NCBI GenBank assembly: GCA_003023645.1
Contig: PXYQ01000008.1
Span: forward strand, 1 to 32,512
Reading direction: 5' to 3'
Length of the DNA stretch: 32,512 bases
Source of the DNA: Candidatus Arcticimaribacter sp.
Lineage (GTDB): Bacteria; Bacteroidota; Bacteroidia; Flavobacteriales; Flavobacteriaceae
In this document: one piece after another, positions 1,112 to 26,248 of the stretch
Position numbering within the stretch: position 1 is the stretch's first letter
How the letters are laid out: each line of letters starts with the position of its first letter
Notes under the pieces: model-generated
Databases searched by the model: none
What the model saw: the letters and a program-made list of their open reading frames with translations, nothing else
What the model was told of the DNA's origin: nothing
Program-made: the position numbers and the translations under genes

Positions 1112-1594
1112 TTATTTAAAAATATCCTTCAAAATAACCAAAACGCCTAAGACATAACTTAGTGTCATTAAAATTCCAGAAAATATGACAACATAAGAAA
1201 AGAATGAATAACCAAGCCACAGCATATAAATTCCACCGAAAGTAAGTAAGACGGAAACAAAAGGCTCAATGGTTAAAAAGGTCTTGAGTTTGATGGATTG
1301 ATCTGTTCCCCAAACGAGAATTCCTAACATGAAAAAAATAAATGAAATGGAAAGGATGTGGGTATGAATGATGGTCAACATCTCCCGTTTTCCTTTTTTA
1401 AACTTCATGGTTTCAGCTTCGGGTTTATCTTCATTCCCATTGTAATTCTCTATAACTCCCTGAGGAGTTGCGCTATCTGTTTGTCTTACAAAATTAAGGC
1501 CTGTGAAATAACCAACTGATAAGGCAACTAAAAACGCAAACAAAAACATTTTGATTGGTTTTGGAAGCGTCGCGATGTAGTTTGGAAACATCAT
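1112..1594 (-). CDS. Four-helix membrane protein with HTH histidine pair
   Basis: Predicted inner-membrane protein of 160 residues. Hydrophobic segments fall at about residues 15-35, 75-95, 108-127 and 130-155. Between the first two there is a polar, acidic loop of about 40 residues. Two histidines (H77 and H79, in IIHTHILS) sit at the start of the second helix and could bind a metal or haem. The start codon directly abuts the stop of the upstream FMN-binding gene with no spacing, so the two are almost certainly translated together. That link suggests it is the membrane partner of an extracytoplasmic flavin protein, which is inference. I do not recognise a named family with confidence. Confidence 0.8.
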   Translation of the reverse strand: MMFPNYIATLPKPIKMFLFAFLVALSVGYFTGLNFVRQTDSATPQGVIENYNGNEDKPEAETMKFKKGKREMLTIIHTHILSISFIFFMLGILVWGTDQSIKLKTFLTIEPFVSVLLTFGGIYMLWLGYSFFSYVVIFSGILMTLSYVLGVLVILKDIFK

Positions 1595-2131
1595 TTAGGA
1601 AGGAGTTTTATTATTAAACTCTTTTAAAGAATACAGAAAGTGGTTGATGGATGCAGTCATTGATTTAACAGAAATTGTAGCTCCCGAAATTGCTGTGATC
1701 TCTTCTCCATAACCAAGAATTGAATCCCTATTCTTCGATATGAATTGGGAAAGCCAACGCTTACTGCCTATTTCTCCGCCATAATCTTCACGATAAACCA
1801 ATACTTTCGCTTTTACAATTACAAGGTCTTTATCAAGTAAAACGAGGTACTCAAAACTATCTGTTTTACTAGGAGCTGTTCCAATAAAGGCATAACCTTG
1901 AAGTACATTTTGTGCATGTATTTCTTGAAAAGTACTGGCTTGTAGGAAATTATTAGCTGGGATTTTAAAAGAGTTTTCTTCCAAATTAAAAGTTTCAACT
2001 TTAAAAACACTCTTGATTTCTTTCTGCACTTTCTTCTGAATCCTTTTAGATACAGCGTCGCTATGAGACACATGCGAAGCACTCATTAAAAAAGTAATAG
2101 AAAGACTCAAAAATGAAAGAAAACGGATCAT
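1595..2131 (-). CDS. FMN-binding domain protein, NqrC/RnfG-like, exported
   Basis: A 178-residue protein with an N-terminal hydrophobic export segment (residues 1-19), followed by an FMN-binding domain of the NqrC/RnfG type. The segment YREDYGGEIGSKRW (about 113-126) is typical of the family. S149-G150-A151-T152 matches the flavinylation motif, in which an ApbE enzyme links FMN covalently to the threonine. The Asp usually found three residues before the Ser of this motif is Thr here. It should act in the periplasm or at the outer face of the inner membrane as a one-electron carrier. It lies between a porin and a four-helix membrane protein on one strand, with an AT-rich palindrome just upstream. 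No apbE gene is in the window, so modification would need one elsewhere. Confidence 0.88.
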   Translation of the reverse strand: MIRFLSFLSLSITFLMSASHVSHSDAVSKRIQKKVQKEIKSVFKVETFNLEENSFKIPANNFLQASTFQEIHAQNVLQGYAFIGTAPSKTDSFEYLVLLDKDLVIVKAKVLVYREDYGGEIGSKRWLSQFISKNRDSILGYGEEITAISGATISVKSMTASINHFLYSLKEFNNKTPS

Positions 2132-2169
2132 GACTGCAAATATATTTCAGTTCTTACGAAGGAACAATT

Positions 2170-2192
2170 TTATTTAGATTAATTTTAAATAA
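2170..2192. promoter_or_regulatory. AT-rich 23-bp palindrome, possible Fur-type box (copy 1)
   Basis: Two arms, TTATTTAGATT and a near-complement ending TTAAATAA, pair at 9 of 11 positions around one central base. It lies between the porin stop and the FMN-binding gene start. The same arm occurs at 3383 and 3444. Size and symmetry fit a dimeric metalloregulator such as Fur; the regulator itself is inferred. Confidence 0.5.
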
Positions 2193-2195
2193 ACT

Positions 2196-3377
2196 TTAAA
2201 ACCAAACTCCTACTCCCATATTAAATTGGCCGTATGTGGAACCTGATACAGCTGTTGATTTTGATTGATAATCTACTTTGAAAACTGATCCAGGTGATAA
2301 ATGGTAAGACAAACCAGTAGTCCATTCTTTTCTATGAAAGGCTGGGTTTTGAACTAAAGCGCCTGCAGTTGCTGCATGTGTATTGTAGTCTTCGTAACGA
2401 ACGAAGCCTTCTAATCGCTGAATATTTGAAGAAGGAAGTAAATTATACGCAGCTTCAAGATAATATCCTGAAATTTCTTTTCCAAGATCCCTGCCTGTTA
2501 GTGTGTTGTATTGATCCGAATCCGAAAGATTTGCTTGAATGAATTGACCTCGTGCAGAAAATTTTCTTAATCTGTATCGAGCATCCAATCCAACCATTGA
2601 AACCCCTACCGTACTTCCAAGTATACCAGACTGGTCATCTACAGCTTGTGTTCTTCCGAAGTATCCAGAAAGCCCTAATCGAAGTCCAGGAATTCCATAA
2701 TAATCAACCTTTGAAGAAAAGTTAAATTGATCTACAGTAGACTTTGCTCCTTTTTGACGGCCACTTCTTAGTCCATTACTTCCTTTGAGTTTACCGTCTG
2801 TTCCGTCATGAGATAAAAACCCATTAAAAATATAAGCTTGATATCGCAAGGCTAATGCATCCCATCGTCCCGAAGCTCCAATTCCTATTTCTCTCCAAGT
2901 CGTTGGGACAATTGCATTGTCAAGACTTGGACGCTCAACACCATTAAAGGTTGTAGGTTCGTGAAATTCGTTTATAATCCCCATTGGAACTAGCATTAAT
3001 CCAGCTCTAAGATTGAGCCCGTCTGTAAGGTTATAATTAATAAAGGCTTGCTCTACGTACACTTCTTTCACATGTTCAAATTCAATTTCTGTGATGAACT
3101 GTACGCGTTCATTAAACTTATAACCGAATAAAAGAACCAAACGTTGTACATCTAATTCTCCATTAGCATTATCGGGTTGATTGTATAAAATTTCACCGTA
3201 ACCTCCGAGTGTAACTCCCTGAGGAATTGCTTCAAGATTAGACATGATTCGTTGGTATCCGTTGATCTGAATTGGAGTCTTCGAAATACTATCTTGTTGT
3301 GTATTTAATGCTTGTGGTTGCTGTGCAAAACCAACTGTAGTAATTAAAGTTATTACTGTTAAAAAAAATGTTCTCAT
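2196..3377 (-). CDS. Outer-membrane porin-like beta-barrel protein
   Basis: A 393-residue secreted protein with a clean signal peptide, MRTFFLTVITLITTVGFAQQ. Alternating amphipathic strands run throughout, with many Gly and Tyr residues, and the chain ends in a C-terminal aromatic (GVGVWF), as expected for an outer-membrane barrel. Segments such as LGGYGEILYNQ, RLVLLFGYKFNERVQF and LRAGLMLVPMGIINEFHEP are typical of the Bacteroidota porins often labelled phosphate-selective porin O/P-like. Substrate cannot be read from the sequence. It is first in a run with the FMN-binding protein (64 bases downstream) and the four-helix membrane protein. A strong promoter and two palindrome copies lie upstream, so metal-regulated import or surface electron transfer is a reasonable guess. 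Confidence 0.88.
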   Translation of the reverse strand: MRTFFLTVITLITTVGFAQQPQALNTQQDSISKTPIQINGYQRIMSNLEAIPQGVTLGGYGEILYNQPDNANGELDVQRLVLLFGYKFNERVQFITEIEFEHVKEVYVEQAFINYNLTDGLNLRAGLMLVPMGIINEFHEPTTFNGVERPSLDNAIVPTTWREIGIGASGRWDALALRYQAYIFNGFLSHDGTDGKLKGSNGLRSGRQKGAKSTVDQFNFSSKVDYYGIPGLRLGLSGYFGRTQAVDDQSGILGSTVGVSMVGLDARYRLRKFSARGQFIQANLSDSDQYNTLTGRDLGKEISGYYLEAAYNLLPSSNIQRLEGFVRYEDYNTHAATAGALVQNPAFHRKEWTTGLSYHLSPGSVFKVDYQSKSTAVSGSTYGQFNMGVGVWF

Positions 3378-3382
3378 TGCCT

Positions 3383-3405
3383 TTATTTAGATTCATTAAG
3401 AATAA
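3383..3405. promoter_or_regulatory. Palindrome half-site over the porin start region (copy 2)
   Basis: The arm TTATTTAGATT (3383-3393) is identical to those at 2170 and 3444, but the second arm is degenerate. It lies between the -7 element (3411-3418) and the porin ATG (3377), covering the expected transcription start. This is a position suited to repression. Confidence 0.4.
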
Positions 3406-3410
3406 TAATG

Positions 3411-3441
3411 CAAATATATAATGCAGAAAACAATCTACAAA
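3411..3441 (-). promoter_or_regulatory. Porin operon promoter, full Bacteroidota consensus
   Basis: On the minus strand TTTG (3441-3438) is followed by exactly 19 bases and then TATATTTG (3418-3411). This fits TTTG-N19-TAnnTTTG. The porin ATG is 33 bases downstream of the -7 element. Palindrome copies 2 and 3 lie on either side. Confidence 0.75.
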
Positions 3442-3443
3442 GC

Positions 3444-3466
3444 TTATTTAGATTAAATTTAAATAA
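3444..3466. promoter_or_regulatory. AT-rich 23-bp palindrome, possible Fur-type box (copy 3)
   Basis: The best of the three copies: arms TTATTTAGATT and AATTTAAATAA pair at 10 of 11 positions around a central A. It lies directly upstream of the porin -33 element and overlaps the stop codon of the HMG-CoA lyase gene. Iron or another metal is the likeliest signal; this is inference from shape and placement. Confidence 0.55.
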
Positions 3467-4313
3467 AGATAATGAGTGACTGATTATAGGCGTATTCAAA
3501 CTTAATTGGGTTGATGTTCAATGAAATTTTTTGTTGATTGAAGAAAGAAAGCAACTTCTCTGTCGGTAAATTTCCGGTCAAATCATCGGCCGCCATAGGA
3601 CAACCGCCAAATCCTTTTATTGCACCATCAAATCGAATGCAGCCTGCGTCATAAGCTGCCTTAATTTTATTAAAAGCATTCTGAGGCTGGGTATGAAAAT
3701 GAGCACCGATTTCAATTTCTGGATACTGTAAAATCGACGCTTTAAAGATGTGGCTTATGTCGTCAGTTTTTGCTGTTCCTACAGTATCGGAAAGCGAAAT
3801 GATTTGCACTCCTTTCTCAACCAAAAGATCAACCCAATTCATTAGAATGGAAACTGACCAGGGATCTCCGTAAGGATTCCCAAAACCCATAGATAAATAA
3901 ACAACAAGTTTTTTGCCAGAACTTGCGCAAACCTTTAGTAATTCATCCAACAACACAAGTGCTTCTTGTTGGGTTTTATGGGTATTTCGCATTTGAAAAT
4001 TCTCTGAAACTGAAAGCGGAAAACCTATATATGAAATTGAATCGAATTGTGTCGCTTCTAGCGCACCTCGAAGGTTCGCTACAATAACCAACAATTCCGA
4101 CTTAGTCTCTGTGGTATCAATATTACGAAGAACCTCAGCAGTATCTCGCATTTGAGGAATTGCTTTGGGGGACACAAAACTACCAACGTCTATGACATCA
4201 AAACCAACTGTCAATAACGATTGTACATACTTGATTTTTGCCTCAGTAGGTATCCACTTCTTAATGCCTTGCATGGCATCGCGTGGACATTCAATAAGAA
4301 TAGGCCTTTTCAT
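3459..4313 (-). CDS. mvaB: Hydroxymethylglutaryl-CoA lyase
   Basis: Cleaves HMG-CoA to acetoacetate and acetyl-CoA, the last step of leucine breakdown. It is a TIM-barrel enzyme needing a divalent metal. The N-terminus carries the ECPRD motif (R11, D12: substrate and metal binding). HFH at 205-207 supplies metal ligands, and GFGGCPMA contains the catalytic Cys (C238) in the family signature. At 284 residues it is of normal length. It is 21 bases downstream of the LysE exporter gene on the same strand, probably cotranscribed. Its stop codon overlaps a palindrome belonging to the porin promoter region. Liuase-type partner genes of leucine breakdown are not in view. Confidence 0.93.
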   Translation of the reverse strand: MKRPILIECPRDAMQGIKKWIPTEAKIKYVQSLLTVGFDVIDVGSFVSPKAIPQMRDTAEVLRNIDTTETKSELLVIVANLRGALEATQFDSISYIGFPLSVSENFQMRNTHKTQQEALVLLDELLKVCASSGKKLVVYLSMGFGNPYGDPWSVSILMNWVDLLVEKGVQIISLSDTVGTAKTDDISHIFKASILQYPEIEIGAHFHTQPQNAFNKIKAAYDAGCIRFDGAIKGFGGCPMAADDLTGNLPTEKLLSFFNQQKISLNINPIKFEYAYNQSLIIFI

Positions 4314-7592: not shown

Positions 7593-7621
7593 AAAAACCC
7601 TCTATATAATAGAGGGTTTTT
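7593..7621. terminator. Second, perfect 12-bp hairpin terminator
   Basis: Arms AAAAACCCTCTA (7593-7604) and its exact complement (7610-7621) enclose a 5-base loop, with A and T tracts on both sides. It could act in either direction. No minus-strand gene ends here, so it is probably a backup for the same plus-strand unit or insulates the next gene. Confidence 0.75.
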
Positions 7622-8059: not shown

Positions 8060-8082
8060 AAACCCTCCATAAAGGAGGGTTT
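8060..8082. terminator. Bidirectional terminator between convergent genes
   Basis: Arms AAACCCTCC (8060-8068) and GGAGGGTTT (8074-8082) close a 5-base loop. It lies between phhB, ending at 8058, and the minus-strand gene ending at 8092. An A-run on the left gives the T-tract for the minus direction. The arm core resembles the hairpin at 7593. Confidence 0.82.
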
Positions 8083-9668: not shown

Positions 9669-9958
9669 AGCAATCGTTTTTAAATAGCTTCTGTGATTAA
9701 AAAACGACCAAAAATCCGTTTGTATTAATTTTTAAACAGATTACATGTTGTGGAATTAGTAGAATGGTAGTAAAACAGTTTGAATCCCTCTATAATGAAG
9801 AAAACAAATCATTAAAAGTCAATTATTTAGATTTATTAAACTTTCGAGAAGTTTCATCTAAACTATTGGAGGTTTTTCAAGTAGTACATCAATCGACTCA
9901 ATTTTTAGTTATAAAAAACGGGATTTCCGTCTATGATGAACCTCATTATGACGATTAA
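9665..9958 (+). pseudogene. ytxJ: ytxJ-like bacilliredoxin gene broken by one in-frame TAA
   Basis: Read from the GTG at 9665, which overlaps the stop of the upstream small gene, one frame gives MKQSFLNSFCD, then TAA at 9698-9700. It continues as KTTKNPFVLIFKQITCCGIS and ends at 9958. The part after the stop matches YtxJ, a monothiol bacilliredoxin: a strand ending in IFK before a Cys site (usually KHSTxCxIS, here KQITCCGIS), then LDLLNFREVS, and a C-terminus like VHQSTQFLVIKNGISVYDEPHYDD. The intact remainder from ATG 9764 (64 residues) lacks the Cys site, so it would be inactive. The single stop in a frame otherwise open on both sides points to recent decay or a base error. A bshB1 gene in the same window shows bacillithiol synthesis. 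Confidence 0.62.
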
Positions 9959-24502: not shown

Positions 24503-26248
24503 ATGTACGAAATATCAGAATTAAAGAGTAAAAAACTACCTGATTTACAAATCATAGCCAAGTCAATTGGTGTAAAGCGGATTACAGGTCTCAAAAAGAT
24601 GGATTTGATTTATCAAATCATTGATTACGTTTCTGCAAATCCCGACGCAATAAAGAGTGCGCCCATTGCACCAGCTGCAGCGTCAGCACCAACTACTCCA
24701 AAAGAAGAAGTGGTTAAAGTGAAAAAAGCAAGTGTAAGAAAACCCAAACCGCCTAAAGCGCCGAAGGTTGAAACAAAAGAAGACACTACTGATGCAACAG
24801 TAAGTTCAGAGTCTTCATCCAAAGAAAAGAAAGAACCAACTCAGCCTAAAAGAAATAATCCCGAGAAGCCAAAAACTCAAAATCAAAACGGGAACCCCAA
24901 TCAAAAACCAAATCCCAATCAGAAACAGAACGGGAATCCCAATCAAAAACAAAACCCAAACCAAAACCCAAATCAGAAGCCGAACCCAAATCAGAAGCAA
25001 AACCCGAATCAAAACCCAAACCAAAATCCAAACCAGCGAAAGAACAATAACCCCAACCAAAAGAACAAAACTCCAGGAGAACCTAATCATAATAAAGACA
25101 AACGCAACCGTTATCGCGAACCTGATTATGAATTCGAAGGGATTATTGATTCTGAGGGAGTTTTAGATATCATGATTGAAGGATATGGTTTCTTAAGGTC
25201 TTCTGACTACCATTACCTTTCCTCCCCTGATGATGTTTATGTTTCGCAATCTCAAATTCGTTTATTTGGTCTTAAGACTGGAGATACGGTACTTGGAACT
25301 GTTCGTCCACCCAAAGAAGGAGAAAAGTATTTCCCTTTAATTAAAGTAAATAAAATCAATGGTCTTGATCCTAAAGTAGTCCGTGATCGAGTTTCTTTTG
25401 AACACCTTACCCCGCTTTTCCCACAAGAAAAATTTAAGCTAGCAGAAAAACAAAGTACCATTTCAACTCGAATTATCGACCTCTTCTCTCCTATCGGGAA
25501 AGGACAACGTGGAATGATTGTTTCGCAACCGAAAACAGGTAAGACCATGTTGCTTAAAGATATTGCAAATGCTATCGCAGCCAATCACCCTGAAGTGTAT
25601 CAAATCATTCTTTTGATTGATGAACGTCCAGAGGAGGTAACTGATATGCAACGTAACGTAAAAGGAGAGGTAGTTGCTTCTACTTTTGACGAACCTGCAG
25701 ATAGACACGTTAAAGTGGCTAATATTGTTTTAGAAAAAGCAAAACGTTTAGTAGAATGTGGTCATGATGTTGTAATCCTCTTAGACTCCATCACCCGTTT
25801 AGCTCGAGCATATAACACCGTTCAGCCTGCATCAGGAAAAATATTGAGTGGGGGTGTTGATGCTAACGCGCTACACAAACCAAAACGTTTCTTTGGAGCT
25901 GCCCGTAATATTGAAAATGGAGGCTCTTTATCAATCATTGCTACTGCATTGACAGAGACTGGATCTAAAATGGATGAAGTTATTTTTGAAGAATTCAAAG
26001 GAACTGGAAATATGGAACTTCAATTGGAACGTAAGATTTCCAACCGACGTATTTTCCCGGCCATAGACTTGATTTCGTCGAGTACAAGACGTGATGACAT
26101 CTTATTGGATGAAAACACCGTAAAACGCATGTGGATCATGCGTAAGTACCTTGCCGACATGAATCCAGTAGAAGCCATGGAGTTCATTAACGATCGCTTT
26201 AAAAGAACTAAAAACAACGAAGAGTTTTTGATCTCGATGAATACCTAG
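24503..26248 (+). CDS. rho: Transcription termination factor Rho with NPNQ-repeat insert
   Basis: Hexameric RNA-dependent ATPase that ends transcription. It is 581 residues, about 160 more than E. coli Rho. Residues 1-45 form the Rho N-terminal domain ([16 protein letters not shown]...). A Lys/Pro/Glu-rich linker follows, then at about 126-188 a low-complexity run of NPNQK/NPNQN units, and then a basic [12 protein letters not shown] join. The RNA-binding cold-shock-like domain starts near 215. The ATPase holds [11 protein letters not shown] (Walker A), [12 protein letters not shown] and [13 protein letters not shown], all intact. Insertions here are known in Bacteroidota, and in Bacteroides thetaiotaomicron the disordered region drives condensate formation. 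Confidence 0.96.

Follow-up and report, generated by a model that had tools for sequence, protein, structure and literature searches.

An 11-bp word recurs around a porin gene in the stretch of Candidatus Arcticimaribacter DNA analysed here (32,512 bp in full, hereafter the window), which raises the question of whether it recurs by chance or marks the operators of a regulator and, in the latter case, of which regulator and to what end. A search of the whole window finds exact copies of the 11-mer TTATTTAGATT at positions 2170, 3383, 3444 and 9823. The preliminary description had placed the first three copies exactly, yet its count of three was incomplete, since the fourth was overlooked. That copy (9823-9833) lies inside a short open frame without a second arm, and by eye it appears to be a coding coincidence. 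The copies at 2170, 3383 and 3444 each form one arm of a 23-bp palindrome, in which 9, 7 and 10, respectively, of 11 positions are paired, and the recount returned the values given earlier for the near-palindromes at 2170 and 3444.

The four matches in the window compare with a mean of 0.13 in shuffled sequences, none of 100 shuffles reaching four, and the probability of TTATTTAGATT occurring three times within a given 1,297-bp stretch is approximately 1.5e-8. However, some 11-mer occurs three times within 1,300 bp in 45 of 200 windows simulated with a first-order Markov model, so the repetition alone is only suggestive and no proof. Three further 11-mers are repeated likewise in the window, in a low-complexity gene. 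Other repetitive features were also observed: two palindromes with 10 of 11 pairs and AACCCTC...GAGGGTT arms (7596-7618 and 8060-8082), which are possibly terminators, and a gene at 24503-26248, by eye that of the transcription terminator Rho, with an Asn/Pro/Gln-rich low-complexity insert built from 12-30 bp DNA repeats.

Four genes follow one another on the minus strand around the repeats: an HMGL-like gene (3459..4313; PF00682, E 3.2e-22), a porin gene (2196..3377; Porin_O_P, PF07396, E 2e-07, 31 bits against a cut-off of 20.9), a gene for an FMN-binding domain protein (1595..2131; PF04205, E 8.8e-07, 29.9 bits against a cut-off of 22) and a gene for a 160-aa membrane protein of no named family (1112..1594). 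The HMGL-like gene is upstream and often a neighbour in relatives, and we do not claim it as a target. The candidate operators lie on the same strand. Box 1 (3444..3466) is the palindrome with 10 of 11 pairs; it extends into the final codons of the HMGL-like gene and ends 25 nt before the -7 element of a porin promoter predicted from sequence (3411..3441), adjoining its -33 TTTG. This promoter consists of TTTG (3438-3441), a 19-nt spacer and TATATTTG (3411-3418), and sits between the palindromes at 3444 and 3383. Given this geometry, transcription of the porin gene would start within box 2 (3383..3405), a degenerate candidate operator that begins 5 nt past the -7 element; the earlier statement that the 3383 copy covers the expected transcription start therefore holds. 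Box 3 (2170..2192) lies between the porin and FMN genes, beside a second -7 element, and is probably a third operator, which corrects the earlier reading. The corresponding internal promoter of the FMN gene, likewise predicted (2137..2167), comprises TTG (2165-2167), 20 nt and TATATTTG (2137-2144). Its -7 element ends 5 nt ahead of the ATG (2129-2144), so that the internal promoter would yield a leaderless or near-leaderless message.

The palindrome is summarized by the symmetric pattern TTATTTAGA-N5-TCTAAATAA, which has 18 fixed positions. Boxes 1 and 3 present one mismatch each to this pattern and box 2 presents three, versus two in the closest relatives, L128 and L129. The preliminary description had proposed searching the genome for the motif and listing nearby genes. 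When this search was applied to the window's genome (2.09 Mb in 190 contigs, 84% complete), it returned 8 sites with at most two mismatches, against 1 for the reversed pattern used as control, and it placed sites at iron genes; with three mismatches, 12 sites against 5 were obtained. Two of the eight are in the window, and the others are at hemA/araC (a perfect match), sufA, feoA-feoB, nqrA, a cytochrome gene and, on contig C128, before a gene of 98 aa. The last has no counterpart among the sites listed for G010, a one-contig genome of the genus, and may be noise. The cytochrome gene has one monohaem and several multihaem domain matches, and we call it actA-like, after alternative complex III. 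The perfect box, the only one in the genome, was found between hemA and the gene of an AraC-family regulator (L003, 1501-1523, contig C160), 15 nt before the latter, an arrangement retained in other genera.

G010 also presents 8 sites at up to two mismatches, at the same six target loci. The genome-wide search with three mismatches was abandoned as noise, given that it yielded 16 sites in G010 against 27 for the reversed control; this absence of excess speaks for chance AT-rich sequence as the origin of the repeats, as do the simulated windows above. Genome-wide claims are thus made at up to two mismatches, three being allowed only in short upstream regions with a control. With that threshold, 37 of 40 scanned genomes contain a match, with 215 sites in total against 66 for the control, and 35 of the 40 exceed their own control. 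The best sites listed outside the genus include, as judged by eye from translated starts, those at SufA (G034), hemA/araC (G022 and G024), a ferritin (G020) and receptor-like genes (G019, G035 and G037); sites were fetched from the listed genomes only.

A match to the FMN protein was found in 20 of 60 related genomes, and the porin, FMN and membrane protein genes are found together in 17 of the 20 regions fetched around these matches, the last of them staying with the operon in as many. The membrane protein gene was not detected in one of the 20 regions, L147, and L142 holds only a divergent second FMN gene. In one member of the genus (L138, G013:C2:459500-467500), the porin is lost and the reading frames of the FMN and membrane proteins are disrupted; what remains is the HMGL-like gene with one box. 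Among named genomes, 484 relatives of the FMN protein were confirmed, and the best 80 of them were used; among these 80, the genera include Winogradskyella, Tenacibaculum, Polaribacter, Olleya and Bizionia. In the titles and abstract openings searched, with subscription journals mostly outside the search, no account of a porin-FMN-membrane protein operon was found.

Boxes at the porin were counted with up to three mismatches, over an interval running from some 300 nt before the porin start to 60 nt past it. From 89 loci, L175, L205, L145 and L146 were set aside for having no porin within 1.2 kb, although in L145 and L146 a porin is visible in the regions fetched around FMN matches. Of the remaining 85 loci, 84 have a box before the porin and 76 have at least two; the reversed pattern is found in 12, several of its matches being 8 nt off a real box. 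The sole locus without a box, L214, starts near a contig edge and has a truncated porin. These places and their symmetry being kept, and the motif being co-located with iron genes, chance AT-rich repetition is contradicted and was rejected, with a probability that we consider negligible; given the conservation across genomes, the repeat is taken as real.

The arrangement of the boxes is also conserved. A TAnnTTTG element lies between the box pair in 74 of 76 loci (5.1 expected from mononucleotide shuffling), preceded by TTG at 19-20 nt in 68 of the 76. The gap between the end of box 1 and the -7 element downstream of it is 25 nt in 66 of 76 loci and differs from this by a single nucleotide (24 or 26 nt) in 8 more, and box 2 follows the -7 element by 4-5 nt in 8 of 74 loci and by 16-18 nt in 57. 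Of 80 intervals from box to box, 65 measure 61 or 72-74 bp, values about one helical turn apart, with 68 bp among the exceptions. At the FMN gene, some box is present in 17 of 85 loci, and in all eight genus loci examined, which as members of one genus are not independent, a third box lies 25-26 nt before a second TAnnTTTG. These counts indicate that two boxes flank the main promoter and that genus members have a third next to an internal promoter.

The preliminary description had suggested a Fur-type metal box controlling the porin, FMN-binding protein and membrane protein genes, and had advised comparison with known Fur boxes. In Riemerella anatipestifer, the Fur box is the 19-bp palindrome ATTTAGAATTATTCTAAAT, and fragments containing such boxes were shifted by purified Fur (PMC5609570). 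The core of TTATTTAGA-N5-TCTAAATAA is identical to it letter for letter. Against this match, the abstract of PMC5609570 prints the E. coli box instead, and a later Riemerella paper gives an E. coli-type sequence as the Fur box of the species (PMC7976709). The box at rhuB was tested by gel shift, and RhuB rises both without iron and without fur (PMC10986502). Fur (PF01475) is present in 57 of the 60 relatives and in 19/19 genomes of the genus. In the window's genome there is a single match (93 bits), and the solved structures nearest to this candidate are Fur proteins, PerR and Zur scoring lower. The earlier suggestion is thus favoured by the motif at iron genes, by the Riemerella core and by the presence of Fur throughout the genus, and we consider it very likely, from sequence comparison, that Fur binds the box. 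Boxes were absent from three of the 40 scanned genomes: G032 and G039, both without Fur, and G038, where Fur is present. G032 and G057, from one genus of the order, are nearly complete and have neither a Fur nor a DtxR match; in G032, an ApbE match is absent as well.

It is also conceivable, though improbable, that the box is read mainly by a regulator of the DtxR family or by a second Fur-like protein, Fur being a partial or secondary binder. DtxR-family proteins (PF01325) are found in 43 of the 60 relatives, and some genomes have several Fur-family proteins. Published Riemerella data are divided on this point. In favour of Fur, deletion of fur raises box genes such as hmuR, by 2.64 in iron-rich medium, and feoA and feoB are up under iron limitation. 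In favour of another reader, hmuR/hmuY, sufA/sufB and feoA keep responding to iron when fur is deleted, and the mutant has feoAB below the wild-type level, not above it. Much of the iron response thus persists, and another iron sensor may act there. Within the genus, however, DtxR was not detected in 10 of 19 genomes, which nevertheless hold 45 boxes against 5 control matches; were it present, the probability of missing it through incompleteness in the nine besides the window's genome would be approximately 6e-8. DtxR as a necessary regulator in the genus was therefore rejected. Exactly one Fur-family match is found in 16 of the 19 genomes, which also counts against a second Fur-like reader. 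Fur is the best candidate, albeit perhaps not the only reader of the box.

The position of the box relative to the promoter differs among its targets. In a survey of 38 chosen loci, boxes at feoA start 0-1 nt after the -7 element in all five genus loci, and those at sufA 4-5 nt after it in 4/4 loci, one of them from another family; such boxes, just past the -7 element, are as expected of repression. The nqrA box, in turn, is upstream, with 45 nt from its end to the -7 element in 8/8 genus loci, and so is that of the cytochrome gene, with 43-45 nt in 7/7. TTG is found 18-21 nt before the -7 element in only one of these 15 promoters. Upstream boxes that are phased, at promoters mostly without a -33 TTG, are as expected of an activator.

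For loci outside the genus, about 350 nt were scanned at 28 cytochrome genes and 28 nqrA genes: 25 of the former and 14 of the latter have a box, and the reversed pattern has no match at either. For the cytochrome gene, these 28 come from 29 genomes, G021 being left out because its match is only weak. For the cytochrome gene, the distance from box to -7 element is 43-45 nt in 22 of 25 loci, and 32, 54 and 55 nt in the others, with TTG in none. For nqrA, it is 32, 42-45, 53-55 or 76 nt in 13 loci, with TTG in one; no -7 element was found at the fourteenth nqrA locus with a box. L265 and L317 are the same place, whose -7 element is at 44 nt in the wider count and was missed in the survey of 38 loci, which used a longer frame. 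The distances share one helical face: the 14 unique values give a resultant of 0.88, with none of 5,000 random sets as high, and when four distance classes are considered 0.9% of random sets are as high, although these numbers overstate independence because the loci share ancestry. The nqrA and cytochrome boxes are common to divergent genes, a T9SS plug-domain gene and a SPOR gene, and it is from the position of the -7 element that nqrA and the cytochrome gene are taken as the probable targets. Upstream of the actA-like gene (L296-L323), the distal half-box is perfect and the promoter-side half is steadily TATAAATTA instead of TCTAAATAA, unlike the porin boxes, which keep the promoter-side half perfect.

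The upstream position of boxes 1 and 3 would allow Fur to activate the porin operon rather than repress it. The distance from box end to -7 element is 24-26 nt for box 1 (74 of 76 loci) and 25-26 nt for box 3 (the eight genus loci); a fixed distance of about 25 nt would also suit an activator, and the nqrA and cytochrome boxes are likewise upstream of their -7 elements. Yet the porin promoter mostly has its TTG (68/76 loci, compared with 1/15 promoters of nqrA and the cytochrome gene), and a second box lies at or just after the expected start of the porin transcript. We thus regard activation as unlikely, slightly more so than a regulator other than Fur, and repression as the preferred reading.

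That the three palindromes are Fur operators, through which iron-loaded Fur represses the porin-FMN-membrane protein operon, probably for iron supply, is a reading that we hold with good confidence. When iron is present, Fe-Fur would occupy boxes 1 and 2, on either side of the porin promoter, as well as box 3 next to the internal promoter, and the operon would be off. When iron is short, Fur would be released and the operon made together with FeoAB and Suf. Small iron complexes might then enter through the porin, and the flavin protein, possibly assisted by the membrane protein, might help reduce iron for ferrous uptake by FeoAB. The motif, its placement and conservation, the co-located iron genes and the presence of Fur are computed; Fur as binder, repression and the role in iron reduction are inferred, the last being the weakest step, suggested by co-regulation and by flavin-linked iron systems elsewhere (PMC8238504).

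The proteins themselves were considered with respect to this role. The core [S/T]GA[S/T] is present in 84 of 85 FMN proteins, and the Asp of D-x-x-[S/T]-G-A-[S/T] in 5 of those 84; it is absent from the window's protein, and this scarcity of Asp counts against the preferred reading. SGAT as a full ApbE motif was rejected, since the published motif starts with Asp, which most orthologues lack. In one fumarate reductase, replacing this Asp with Ala had minor effects (PMC12052999). The window's genome has two ApbE matches (PF02424), although the two proteins may serve NQR alone; covalent flavinylation of the FMN protein is possible, if uncertain, from its sequence. In Riemerella, an ApbE gene rises on iron restriction, by 1.84 in the wild type and 3.37 in the fur mutant, which would fit flavin use under iron shortage. 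The 160-aa membrane protein has no Pfam match at E 0.001, its family showing weak scattered matches (DUF2871 in 9 of 35 members, best E 0.02), and no PDB sequence match at E 1. Its model has four long predicted helices (pLDDT 86.5), for which Foldseek retrieved nothing from the PDB at E 0.001 or better; a second fold comparison gave a best Z of 8.8, values usual for helical bundles. An HxH is invariant in 35 aligned members.

A wider reading is that one regulator, through one palindrome, represses the porin-flavin operon, feoAB and suf and activates an alternative complex III-like operon and Na+-NQR, from one helical face and widely in Flavobacteriales, and that the porin-flavin-membrane protein operon is an undescribed reductive iron-uptake system. 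Taken as a whole, we put this forward tentatively, as having slightly less than an even chance of being right. The Riemerella data cut both ways here: iron restriction lowers a quinone-binding subunit of cytochrome c oxidoreductase by 1.01 in the wild type and 3.47 in the fur mutant, and without iron the subunit is 2.23 lower in the fur mutant, so that it appears iron-dependent, as activation predicts, yet its response survives the loss of fur. The analysis provides a readable iron regulon for marine flavobacteria and links to iron an operon whose role is unassigned. A further question becomes directly testable, namely whether a single iron sensor can raise respiration and lower iron uptake through the same DNA word, as decided by the position of that word relative to the promoter.

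Judged by its sequence, the box is of a known kind; the points of interest are the operon, which among the targets here bears the heaviest marking, and the activator-like position that the box takes at respiratory genes. The box resembles that of Riemerella in its symmetric 19-bp core, in the occurrence of Fur within the same order and in having iron-uptake genes among its targets. Here, however, two extra bases are conserved on each side and paired boxes surround one promoter, and the porin-FMN operon is not named among the Fur-regulated genes and boxes in Tables 4 and 5 of PMC5609570. For respiratory genes, the literature search, covering titles and abstract openings and few subscription journals, found no report that Fur controls alternative complex III or NQR in Bacteroidetes. 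A precedent exists in Neisseria, where nuoA and norB are reported to be directly activated by Fur from upstream boxes (PMC3788343). There, as here, the box is upstream of respiratory genes and has the same sequence as repressor boxes. The Neisseria boxes are about 100 bp before the start, whereas here 32, 42-45, 53-55 or 76 nt separate the box end from the -7 element, and the genes are others. Clusters for flavin-linked iron assimilation, in turn, are known with PepSY-, MsrQ- and DsbD-like proteins and P19 (PMC8238504). The present operon has in common with such systems an FMN-binding domain protein in a predicted iron-controlled operon and ApbE in the genome; it differs in that the Asp of the motif is mostly missing, and in having a porin and a membrane protein of no named family in place of PepSY, MsrQ, DsbD or VIT1.
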